DNA of 64,000 bases from positions 62,001 through 126,000 of the forward strand of contig CACKAJ010000001.1 in NCBI GenBank assembly GCA_902598125.1, in the 5' to 3' direction. A model generated the notes under the pieces. That model had not been told where the DNA came from and did no database searches. It saw nothing but the letters and a program-made list of their open reading frames with translations. Source of the DNA: an uncultured Pelagibacteraceae bacterium. GTDB taxonomy: Bacteria > Pseudomonadota > Alphaproteobacteria > Pelagibacterales > Pelagibacteraceae. Each line of letters starts with the position of its first letter. The stretch's first letter is position 1. Shown here in pieces: positions 14,850 through 20,800 of the stretch. The translations under genes and the position numbers were made by a program.

Positions 14850-15514
14850 ATTTTTCCAAAATTTCTTTTAATTTTTTTATATTTTTCAATAATTCGCTTT
14901 AAATCTATTGGGCTAAAGTCTGGCCATAATTTTTTCAAAAAATATAACTCTGAATATGCTAACTGCCAAAGCATAAAATTGCTTAGTCTTTGATGACCAC
15001 CAGTCCTTATTAAAATCTCTGGATTAGGCATATTTTTAGTATAAAGATTTTTTTCAAAATTTTTCAAATTAATTTTTTTCTTTATATTTTTAAGTGAATG
15101 TAATATTTCATTTTTAGAACCATAATTAATAGCTAAATTCACTGTAATTTTTTTATTTTTACTAGTTAAATAAACTGTTTTATGTAGTGTTGATTTAATA
15201 TCTTTAGGTAATTTTTTATTCTCACCTAATATGTTAATTTTTATTCCTTCATTAACAATGCTTTTTATTTCTTTATCAAAATAATTTTGAATTAATTTAA
15301 ATAGAAATATTATTTCTTTTTTTGGACGTCTCCAATTTTCTGAGGAAAAAACATAAAAAGAAACTATAGGAATGTTTAATTTAATTGAATACTTTACGAT
15401 TTTTTTTACTGTTTCAACTCCCTTCAGATGGCCAAAATTTCTTCCTTTATTTCTCTTTTTTCCCCATCTACCATTCCCGTCCATGATAAAAGCTACATGG
15501 TTGAGTTTGTTCAT
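14846..15514 (-). CDS. uppS: Isoprenyl transferase (undecaprenyl diphosphate synthase type)
   Basis: Adds isoprene units in cis to make the C55 carrier lipid for peptidoglycan and polysaccharides. The catalytic Asp is D12 in IMDGNGRW. RNFGHLKG, FSSENWRRP and LIRTGGHQRLSNF are the other conserved blocks. At 222 residues it is slightly short but complete. ATGA overlaps join it to frr upstream and cdsA downstream. Confidence 0.96.
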   Translation of the reverse strand: MNKLNHVAFIMDGNGRWGKKRNKGRNFGHLKGVETVKKIVKYSIKLNIPIVSFYVFSSENWRRPKKEIIFLFKLIQNYFDKEIKSIVNEGIKINILGENKKLPKDIKSTLHKTVYLTSKNKKITVNLAINYGSKNEILHSLKNIKKKINLKNFEKNLYTKNMPNPEILIRTGGHQRLSNFMLWQLAYSELYFLKKLWPDFSPIDLKRIIEKYKKIKRNFGKI

Positions 15515-16071
15515 ATCTGGCTAATCTCTTTTTCTTTTTCTGTTAAAATTTTTTCTATATTTTCTATATTAGTATCGGTAAGTTTTTGAATATTTTTTTC
15601 ATAATTCTTATTTTCATCTTCTGATATTGTTTTTTCTTTAAGCTTTTTTTTTAATTCTTCATTTGCTTCTCGTCTAATATTTCTTATTGATATTTTTCCT
15701 TTTTCCCCCATGTTTTTAAGAACTTTTATCAAATCTTTTCTTCTTTCCTCTGTTAAATCTGGGATTCTTAATCTAATTATTTGACCGTCTATTTGAGGGT
15801 TTATACCTAATTCTGATTTTTGTATGGTGCTTTCAATTAAATTAGTATTAGCTTTATCCCATACTTGAATAGAAATTAATCTAGCTTCAGGAACGCTTAC
15901 TGTTGCTAATTGGTCTATAGGCATTAATTGCCCATAAACATCTATTTTAATTGTGTCTAACATGCTCGTGTTAGCTCTTCCTGTTCTTAATGTGGCTATA
16001 TCTTTTTTGAAAGATTGAATACTTTTATCCATCTTAGATGAATAATTTTTTTCATTGAACTCTGTGGTCAC
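15511..16071 (-). CDS. frr: Ribosome-recycling factor
   Basis: Splits post-termination ribosomes together with EF-G. 186 residues with the expected domain I helices; conserved LRTGRANTSMLD and VPEARLISIQVWD are visible. The start is GTG at 16071. A GAGGGAG-type ribosome-binding site sits about 8 bases upstream inside the end of tsf, which supports GTG over the later ATG at residue 14. Only 2 bases separate it from tsf, and the usual pyrH between tsf and frr is absent. Confidence 0.97.
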   Translation of the reverse strand: MTTEFNEKNYSSKMDKSIQSFKKDIATLRTGRANTSMLDTIKIDVYGQLMPIDQLATVSVPEARLISIQVWDKANTNLIESTIQKSELGINPQIDGQIIRLRIPDLTEERRKDLIKVLKNMGEKGKISIRNIRREANEELKKKLKEKTISEDENKNYEKNIQKLTDTNIENIEKILTEKEKEISQI

Positions 16072-16073
16072 TT

Positions 16074-16940
16074 TTAAACTCCCTCACCAACTTTATATCT
16101 AACAAAATCTAAAACTTGAAGAGGTTTATCTGATGAATTTTCTTTCAATACATCTAAAACCTTCTTTTTTGGATCCATTATCCATATTTGATTCAAAAGA
16201 GAGTTATCATTTAGAAATTTTGAAATTTTACCTTTAGAAATTTTTTCAGCCATTTCTGTGGGTTTGCCGGAATTAGTGATTTCAGCTTTAATTATTTCTA
16301 GTTCTTTATTTACGATACTCTTATCTATACTATCTTGATCAATAGCTAGAGGGTTAGAGGCGGCAATATGCATTGCAACTTTTGAACCGATATCATCATT
16401 TTTTCCTTTTGTGATCCCATCTAACTTTACTATTGAGATAATTTTACCTATCCCTTTTTCAATTGATGAGTGAACATATGAAAAGTTGCTTCCTTTTGAA
16501 TTATCAAAAAATTTTGCCCGTCTGATCGTAATTTTTTCTCCGATTTTTGCGATTAAATTAACTAAATTGTCTTTTACTAGTGATCCATTATTCATTTTAG
16601 TATCATTTAATTTTTTTATATTGCCTTTTGTTTTATAATTTAATTCTGAAAGCTCTTTGCAGAAATTTATAAAATCTTGATTTTTAGCTACAAAATCTGT
16701 TTCACTGTTAATTTCTATCAATGAAATCTGACCTTCAAATTCTTTTACCAACGCTAATCCCTCTGATGCTGTTCTGCTCATTTTTTTGGAAGCTTTAGCA
16801 ATACCTTTTTTTCTCAAAAATTCTATTGACTTTTCAATATCCCCTTTGGTTTCATCTAAAGCAACTTTGCAATCTTTGAAACCAACGCCAGTCATTTCTC
16901 TTAATTTTTTAATATTATCTAATAAATCTTTATTTGACAT
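16074..16940 (-). CDS. tsf: Translation elongation factor Ts
   Basis: Nucleotide-exchange factor for EF-Tu. 288 residues. N-terminal UBA-like domain is followed by the strongly conserved TGVGFKDCKVALDETKGD. The core has the EF-Tu-contacting stretch ETDFVAKNQDF and HIAASNPLAI. It follows rpsB by 18 bases in the same message, the universal rpsB-tsf arrangement, and so falls under the control of the rpsB leader. Confidence 0.97.
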   Translation of the reverse strand: MSNKDLLDNIKKLREMTGVGFKDCKVALDETKGDIEKSIEFLRKKGIAKASKKMSRTASEGLALVKEFEGQISLIEINSETDFVAKNQDFINFCKELSELNYKTKGNIKKLNDTKMNNGSLVKDNLVNLIAKIGEKITIRRAKFFDNSKGSNFSYVHSSIEKGIGKIISIVKLDGITKGKNDDIGSKVAMHIAASNPLAIDQDSIDKSIVNKELEIIKAEITNSGKPTEMAEKISKGKISKFLNDNSLLNQIWIMDPKKKVLDVLKENSSDKPLQVLDFVRYKVGEGV

Positions 16941-16958: not shown

Positions 16959-17717
16959 TTATTTTTCTTTTATTTTTGTTGTTACTTTTATCTTAGAAGT
17001 TTTTTCCTCTATTTTTTCCTCAGAACCTTTAATAAATTTTTCTGCATCTTTAATCGTATTCTTAATAAGCTCACAGTATAAATTTATAGATCTTCTAGCA
17101 TCGTCATTGCCTGGAATAGGAAAATCAATACCCGTAGGATCTGAGTTAGTATCTAAAACCGCTATGATAGGGATACCTAATTTCTTCGCCTCTGCAACAG
17201 CAAGGGACTCAATGTTTGTGTCTATAATAAATATTAGATCGGGAGTTTTTTTCATTTCAACTATTCCACCTAATGATCTTTGAAGTTTTTCTTTTTCTTT
17301 TCCAAATTTAAGTATCTCTTTTTTTGTAAAACCAATATTTTCTTTGGAAAGTTGATCGTTTAGTTTTCTTAATCTTTTTATTGAATTTTGTATCGTATTC
17401 CAATTTGTAAGCATACCTCCCAACCATCTGTAATTGACGTAATACTGATTTGTAACTTTAGCTAATTCGCTTATCTGTTCTGATGCTTGTTTTTTTGTTG
17501 ACACGACTAATAATTTTCCTCCACTAGCAATTACTTTATGTAATTGAACTAAAGCGTTTTTAAGAAAATCTACAGTTTGTGTTAGATCTATAATATGAAT
17601 TGAATTCTTCTCTCCAAAAATATATTTCTTCATTTTTGGATTCCATCTTAATGTTTTATGGCCAAGATGTACGCCAGCTTCTAAAAGTTGCTTTATATCT
17701 ACTTTTGGTACGTTCAT
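16959..17717 (-). CDS. rpsB: 30S ribosomal protein S2
   Basis: Structural protein of the small subunit. 252 residues. [29 protein letters not shown] and PDLIFIIDT are signature blocks. The Lys/Glu-rich C-terminal tail is typical of alphaproteobacteria. The 119-base upstream gap holds a structured leader (17725-17788) ending close to the start codon, so expression is probably under feedback control by S2, as known for rpsB in other bacteria. Confidence 0.98.
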
Positions 17718-17724
17718 ATTTTTT

Positions 17725-17788
17725 CCGGTTAATCCACCACAGTAATTCCAAATTAATGGACCGGTAGGGCAATGCCCTTGTAACTGTG
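17725..17788 (-). ncRNA. Structured rpsB mRNA leader with predicted pseudoknot (S2 autoregulation candidate)
   Basis: Read on the minus strand, the 5' UTR of rpsB folds by eye as follows. Helix a pairs CACAGT (17783-17788) with ACTGTG (17738-17743). Inside it is a perfect hairpin AGGGC-ATT-GCCCT (17766-17778) and a small TCCA/TGGA hairpin (17747-17760). CCGGT (17760-17764) pairs with ACCGG (17725-17729), which lies outside helix a, so the last pairing is a pseudoknot. The ACCGG strand and the adjacent GGA lie 7-12 bases before the ATG, so forming the pseudoknot would hide the ribosome-binding region. This is the logic of ribosomal-protein leaders. The pairings are visible in the sequence; regulation by S2 is inference. 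I recall reports of rpsB leader RNAs in this bacterial group but cannot confirm that this is the same motif. Confidence 0.65.
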
Positions 17789-17836
17789 TGCGAAATTATC
17801 ATCACATATATACAAACGAATTAAAAAATCAACCTT

Positions 17837-20800
17837 CTAAACCTTTATTTTTTGTACATATTCCTTAGCTTTTAAAGCTTTAAGATGACTTAGGTCAAAT
17901 TTTCTTTTTTCTTGCAAAGAATAATGAGCTATTTTGTTATCAACTTTCACTATTAAATTTACTTCCGTCTCGCCTTTATTGGATAATAATTTTTTAACTT
18001 CTTCCAAATTATAATTGCTCTTAAGCTCAATGGTTACTTTAGCATATGGCTTTCTTATCACCTCATCTAAACTTAGAATTTTTCTTACATTAATTCTTTT
18101 CTTTACATTATCCCCGTTTATTTTATCTTTTTGTAAAGTTAAGACAAATGACTCGGACTCTTTAAGCTTTTCACGATTAGAAATAAGAATTTCAGCAAAT
18201 AAAAAAAGTTCAAATTCAGCTTCTTTATCACTAAACTTAACTATTGCATAAGGTGTACCTTTTGCACTTTTTTTTTCCTGTATTGACATAATAGTTCCTG
18301 CTACCAAACTTTCATTAGATTCGCTTCTATAGAACTGATTAAAAGAATTAATATTTAATTGAGTAAAAATATCCTCATACTCATTTAAAGGATGGTTTGT
18401 TAAATAAAAACCAATTGATTTAAATTCTTCCGACAAAAGTTCTTTTTGTTTCCATGGAATCGAGGGTAAAAATTCGAATCCATTATGACTTATATCTTTA
18501 TTATCAAAAAGGTTTGATTGATGATTATCTTTATCATCATTTATATTTTTAATTTTTTGAATAATTTTAGGTATTGAATTTAAAATCTTATTTCTATCTT
18601 TATCAAACTCATCAAATACACCAGCTTTAACCAATCCTTCTAATTGAAGTTTGTTTACATCTTTTATACTCACTCTGTTAATAAAGTCATCTAAAGATTT
18701 AAAATTTCCGTTTTTTTCTCTCTCATCAATGATGTTTGTTATAGCTTCAAAACCAACATTTTTTATAGCCCCTAACCCATAGAAAAGTTTTTTATCGATA
18801 GCCTTGAAATCAGAAAAAGATTTATTAATTGAAGGTTTCACAATTTTAATTTTTAGTTTTTTTAATTCTTCTACAAACTCTCTAAGTTTTGACGTATTAG
18901 TAAGCTCTGTAGACATAGTTGCAGCTATAAAATCCTCTTTGTAATACGTTTTTAAAAAAGCGGTTTGATATGCTATTAAAGCGTAAGCTGCAGCATGGCT
19001 TTTATTGAAACCATATTGTGCAAAAGGCTCAATTTTTGTAAAAACAAAATTTGCTACATCTTTTGCAATCCCGTTTTTTATTGCTCCATTTATAAATCTT
19101 TCTTTTTGTCTATCTAACTCAGCTTTCTTTTTTTTTCCCATAGCCCTTCTTAAAATGTCTGCTTCACCAGCTGTGAAGCCAGCTAGGATTTGAGCAATTT
19201 GCATAACCTGTTCTTGATAAATTATAATTCCATATGTTGGCTTTAGTATTTCTTTTAAAGTTGGATGGATATAATCTGGTTCTTTCAATCCATTTTTACA
19301 ATCATTGTAAATAGGAATATTGCTCATTGGACCTGGTCTATACAAAGCTACAAGGGCAATAATATCGTCAAATTTATTTGGCTTCATTTGTCTGATTGCT
19401 TCTCGCATTCCAGCACTCTCAAGTTGAAATAATCCAGTTGTTTCACCTGTAGAAAGCATTGAAAAAACTTTTTGGTCGTTTTGATCAATTTTAGATATAT
19501 CTAAATCAATTTTTTTTGATTTTAATCTTTTTATAGTTTTATCAATCACAGTAAGTGTCTTTAAGCCAAGTAAATCAAATTTAACAAGTCCTGCATTTTC
19601 TGAAGAGTACATATCGTATTGTGTCGAAGGCAGTATTAAATTTGAGCTATGGTCAATATATAGTGGAAATTGCTCGGCCAATTTATTTCCAGCTATTACT
19701 ACGCCCGCAGCATGTGTAGCCATATTTCTGTTGAGTCCCTCTAATTTTAAAGAAAGTTCTAAAAGTTTTTTAACTTTAGAATTGTTTTTTACTTCTTCTT
19801 TAAATCTTGGTTCACGATCAATCGACTCTTGAAGAGTGAGTGGTCTAGATGGATCAAACGGGACCATTTTACAAATTCTATCAACGTGACCATAAGAAAG
19901 TCCTAAAACACGACCAACATCTCTCAAAACCATTCGGGCTTTCAATTTACCAAAAGTAATTATATGAGCTACACCGTTATTGTATTTTTTTTTTAAATAT
20001 TCAAATACTTGATCTCTTTTATCCTCGCAAAAATCAATATCAAAATCTGGCATTGAAACTCTATCTGGATTTAAAAATCTTTCAAAAATCAAATCAAATT
20101 CAATTGGATCCAAATCTGTAATATCTAAACAATAAGCTACTAGTGATCCAGCTCCAGAACCTCTTCCTGGACCAACTGGTATAGAATTTTTTTTGGCCCA
20201 TTTTATATAATCAGAAACTATTAAAAAATAACTTGCGTAATCCATAGAGTTAATAATATTAATTTCATGTTTTAACCTATCTTCATAAGTCTCTCTAATC
20301 TGATCACTTGATTTAATTTTACTTTTATTAATAAAGTTTTTAAGTCTATTTTCTAATCCTCTTTTTGCTAATTTTAATAATTCTTCCTCTGGCGTAGCGT
20401 TTTCTTCACTAGCAATAGAAGGTAGAATTGGTTTCGATTTTTTTGGTTTAAAATTAAATCTTAAATGAAAATTATAATTATTTTTAAGAGCTTCCGGTAT
20501 ATCTAAATATAATTTTTCTATTTCTTCTTGTGATTTAAGATAATGCTGATTGCTATATCTAAATCTATCTTTATCATCTACGAATTTTTTTTCTCCAATA
20601 CAGACGAGAGCATCATGCGCTTCATACATTTCTTTATTCAAATAAAATATTTCTTGGGTAGCAATTAATGGCAATTGAAGAGATTTTGATATATTGAGTA
20701 AATAATTTTCAAAGTTTTTTTCATTTAACTCATTATGACGTTGAATTTCTATGTATAGTCTATCTCCAAAGCTTTTTTTAAGAGTATTTAATATTTGCTC

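Follow-up and report, generated by a model that had tools for sequence, protein, structure and literature searches.

A pseudoknotted leader RNA, confirmed here as real, precedes rpsB on the minus strand of the window, the 64,000-nucleotide stretch of an uncultured Pelagibacteraceae genome that was analysed. An earlier note had read it correctly from the sequence. The element is already known: it is the SAR11 copy of the 'rpsB motif', which was found in the dnaE-rpsB gap of Candidatus Pelagibacter ubique with helices P1, P2 and P3 and a pseudoknot, and was listed for most Alpha- and Gammaproteobacteria (Meyer et al. 2009, PMC2704228). This publication went unmentioned in the earlier note. As the SAR11 form of the known leader, the element probably serves control by S2: excess S2 would stabilise the pseudoknot, the fold would deny the 30S subunit access to the start codon, and rpsB-tsf expression would fall. 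To the 2009 motif, the analysis adds many more genomes and a two-sided pseudoknot change inside SAR11, and it shows that the SAR11 copies tried fall below the Rfam cut-off. Only for the compact SAR11 variant was no earlier description found in the text consulted.

Fold and family of the leader

The leader lies between dnaE, which ends at 17837, and the AUG of rpsB at 17717. The inner helix of P1 pairs CACAGU (17783..17788) with ACUGUG (17738..17743), and it encloses two hairpins, as the earlier note had described with the correct coordinates. Past a bulged A at 17789, an outer part missing from that description pairs CGC (17790..17792) with GUG (17735..17737), both in the minimum-energy fold and in SAR11 leaders. 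The bulged A is conserved, and the same point is unpaired in the Rfam model RF01815. Inside P1 stand the P2 hairpin AGGGC-AUU-GCCCU (17766..17778; AGGGC 17778-17774 with GCCCU 17770-17766) and the P3 hairpin CCA...UGG (17748..17759; CCA 17759-17757 with UGG 17750-17748). In the junction between them, CCGGU (17760..17764) forms the pseudoknot with ACCGG (17729-17725), whose 3' end falls 7 nt short of the start codon, in the position expected of a Shine-Dalgarno sequence. U17760 is used by P3 in the minimum-energy fold and is also needed by the pseudoknot, so only one of the two pairs can form. All these strands are on the minus strand.

The window leader and the published motif (PMC2704228) have in common P1, P2, P3 and the dnaE-rpsB context, as well as a pseudoknot of roughly 5 bp that joins J2-3 with the P1 3' extension, and the element stands directly upstream of rpsB. 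P2 has 5 bp and P3 3 bp in the window leader, versus 3 bp and 2 bp in P. ubique. The comparison with Rfam that the earlier note had proposed gave a divided result. RF01815 matches the leader over its full model length with 31.3 bits (E 3.6e-4), the sole match in the genome, but the score stays below the gathering cut-off of 40 bits and hence below the level of Rfam annotation. Four of six further SAR11 leaders scored 31.9-38.1 bits and two had no match at E <= 0.1, whereas three leaders from other Alphaproteobacteria exceeded the cut-off (43.5-46.8 bits). With scores under 40 bits, the SAR11 copies tried are missed by annotation. Since the motif itself was discovered in Pelagibacter, the low score is read as a limit of the model and not as non-membership.

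Taken alone, the folding energy of the leader is unremarkable against shuffled sequences (z -1.4 to -1.95) and weak as evidence, so the reality of the fold is decided by comparative evidence. Fortuitous pairing within a short, AT-rich intergenic region might give such a z score. That explanation is nevertheless of negligible probability, as dinucleotide shuffling of the 75-nt leader reproduced the whole topology at the given helix lengths in only 5 of 20,000 sequences, and relatives carry compensatory changes.

Conservation and covariation of the helices

The comparison used 147 SAR11 leaders with 120 distinct sequences, on which the per-pair counts are based. The order of P1, P2, P3 and the pseudoknot is kept in 147/147. 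Of the six inner P1 pairs, five are present in all 120 sequences and the last in 119; for the three outer pairs the counts are 120, 102 and 120. Aligning SAR11 leaders, as had been suggested with the earlier note, revealed the compensatory changes sought there in both P1 and the pseudoknot. Each of the six inner P1 pairs has changed on both sides at least once, with lineage variants such as ACAACU/AGUUGU (L020), CAGAGAA/UUCUCUG (L030), GAGGAAA/UUUCCUC (L053) and CGAAGAAA/UUUCUUCG (L079). Under a null in which the changes of each column were replayed along the tree of the same leaders, P1 pairs took ranks 1-4 among all column pairs, and the only two pairs to reach E <= 0.05 were P1 pairs (E 0.03 and 0.05). 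P2 scored 10.5 in the 120 leaders versus 6.3 (sd 0.23) in shuffles, and its stem varies as GGU/ACC, GGGC/GCCC, GAGC/GCUC and GGAU/AUCC. P3 is short, with 2-5 bp in relatives.

The crossing pairing CCGGU/ACCGG, which the earlier note had placed beside the ribosome-binding region, is found in 118/120 SAR11 leaders. One leader (L085) has lost the outermost pair, and a single Pelagibacteraceae assembly (L147, AG-447-O23) carries the two-sided change CCUGU/ACAGG. Because the pseudoknot is nearly invariant inside SAR11, its covariation within the clade rests on this one genome. Outside SAR11 it covaries, with GGGGU/ACCCC in Escherichia coli and UCGGU/ACCGA, CUGGU/ACCAG and AUUGU/ACAAU elsewhere. In a strictly anchored strand-match test, which skipped 33 of 136 leaders and misplaced a few, the leaders' own strands matched in 61/70 other Alphaproteobacteria (maximum 56 in 5,000 permutations), in 11/33 non-alphaproteobacterial leaders (maximum 10 in 5,000) and in 15/44 leaders lacking ACCGG (maximum 13 in 5,000), all uncorrected for relatedness. 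A duplex-energy test across the phylum without strict anchors favoured own over swapped strands slightly; outside the Alphaproteobacteria the difference was not significant because wrong sites were picked. A group of leaders outside the Alphaproteobacteria (L218, L222, L224, L253-L255) has a different pseudoknot before rpsB, e.g., CCAUUGU/ACAAUUGG or CCGUUGU/ACAAUCGG.

The earlier note had also offered a lengthening of the pseudoknot by CCA/UGG. This extension was rejected: all three pairs are available in only 48/120 SAR11 leaders with no compensatory trend, it competes with P3, and most leaders in which it pairs already use the CCA as the P3 5' strand.

The pseudoknot beside the start codon

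From the pseudoknot to the AUG, SAR11 leaders mostly have 6-9 nt, compared to about 16 nt in other Alphaproteobacteria. In the latter, this linker alone carries a Shine-Dalgarno sequence (median -5.6 kcal/mol), whereas in SAR11 its pairing with the anti-Shine-Dalgarno has a median dG of +0.4 kcal/mol. Together with the 3' strand of the pseudoknot, the SAR11 linker reaches a median of -4.3 kcal/mol, and -3.5 kcal/mol or better in 95% of the leaders. A Shine-Dalgarno four-mer after the pseudoknot is kept in 7/120 SAR11 leaders, and the 3' strand is nearly always the sole sequence near the AUG able to pair with the anti-Shine-Dalgarno. The 16S rRNA ends in GGATTACCTCCTTT and not in the usual GGATCACCTCCTTT in six SAR11 genomes (L300, which is from the genome of the window, and L298, L299 and L301-L303), with the anti-Shine-Dalgarno CCUCC intact in all six ends. 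By exact search, the tail GGATCACCTCCTT was not found in 13 of 14 SAR11 genomes.

With the 3' strand of the pseudoknot in the place of a separate Shine-Dalgarno, direct obstruction of the ribosome by the fold is to be expected. Two observations temper this expectation. At -3.5 kcal/mol or less, a Shine-Dalgarno precedes 18% of the 49 genes of the window, versus 16% in shuffled upstream stretches; with so few genes using one, the GG(A/G) of the pseudoknot strand may not act as a Shine-Dalgarno. In E. coli, moreover, the S2 operator does not include the ribosome-binding site (PMC10931766), so direct occlusion need not hold in SAR11. In either case, the fold falls inside the footprint of the ribosome. 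One might tentatively suppose, though it is doubtful, that compaction in SAR11 put the 3' strand where the Shine-Dalgarno used to lie, perhaps with the same function. A repressor-binding leader whose ribosome-binding site is separate, as E. coli and other Alphaproteobacteria have it, would thereby have become a direct occlusion switch.

The near absence of a separate Shine-Dalgarno from SAR11 leaders, and the participation of S1 in E. coli (PMC10931766), would also suit a fold that aids translation without S2, serving as a standby platform or as one that binds S1, where S2 would be only one of several inputs. This is unlikely, as a pseudoknot over the site beside the AUG should hinder translation and not help it. 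Quite unlikely, too, is a leader that works by transcription attenuation or RNase processing. Repression in E. coli does lower the mRNA level as well (PMC10931766), but a pseudoknot ending 7 nt before the AUG fits translation, and the stretch from the element to rpsB showed no terminator-like site.

Regulation by S2 and the downstream genes

In E. coli, excess S2 represses rpsB-tsf via the leader, for which S1 is needed, and a conserved leader bulge is required for regulation (PMC10931766). The bulged A of P1, present and conserved in SAR11, may or may not be the counterpart of the bulge deleted in E. coli. The E. coli leader (RF00127, t44) likewise has a long P1 with GUGGAGG at its 3' end and a pseudoknot, and it precedes the same genes. 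In contrast, it forms a separate Rfam family, its pseudoknot reads GGGGU/ACCCC, and that pseudoknot stops roughly two dozen nt short of the AUG with a GAGG Shine-Dalgarno between them, compared to 7 nt in the window. Among the matches listed up to E 10 at the window leader, RF01815 appeared and RF00127 did not. One leader element appears to have been split into RF00127 (gamma, L226 313-448) and RF01815 (alpha).

Both families are typed as sRNA by Rfam, and the E. coli element is annotated as 'putative small RNA T44', which would suggest a free small RNA. It is very unlikely that this describes the SAR11 element: it adjoins rpsB on the 5' side in all SAR11 genomes examined and in the majority of other genomes of the phylum, it extends to the ribosome-binding region with no terminator-like site found, and E. 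coli work treats its counterpart as a leader (PMC10931766).

In the preferred reading, control by S2, P1 with its conserved bulged A positions the P2-P3 junction for the pairing of CCGGU with ACCGG immediately 5' of the start codon. By analogy with E. coli, S2 in excess of 16S rRNA would bind the leader, there with the assistance of S1, and stabilise the pseudoknotted fold. Judging from the spacing, the stabilised fold would prevent the 30S subunit from reaching the start codon, and the output of rpsB and then of tsf would drop as in E. coli. We infer S2 autoregulation of SAR11 rpsB, with lowered tsf. Pseudoknots also occur in other ribosomal-protein leader RNAs, where a protein-bound leader controls its own operon. 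Those leaders differ in fold, protein and gene. The compact SAR11 leader, with almost no separate Shine-Dalgarno, offers a simple test object for the repression by S2 of its own mRNA.

Downstream of the leader, rpsB for ribosomal protein S2 (16959..17717, minus strand; TIGR01011, 311.8 bits) is followed after 18 nt by tsf for elongation factor Ts (16074..16940, minus strand; TIGR00116, 253.8 bits) and then by frr and uppS. The UMP kinase gene pyrH (TIGR02075) is absent between tsf and frr (15511-16940 of the window), and none above the TIGR02075 cut-off was found in this genome or in any of 14 genomes, complete or nearly so, from its family. The arrangement rpsB-tsf-pyrH-frr-uppS is retained in a sister family within the order, where pyrH exceeds the cut-off in 7/8 genomes. 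An ADK-family kinase is present as a single copy in each of the four SAR11 genomes checked.
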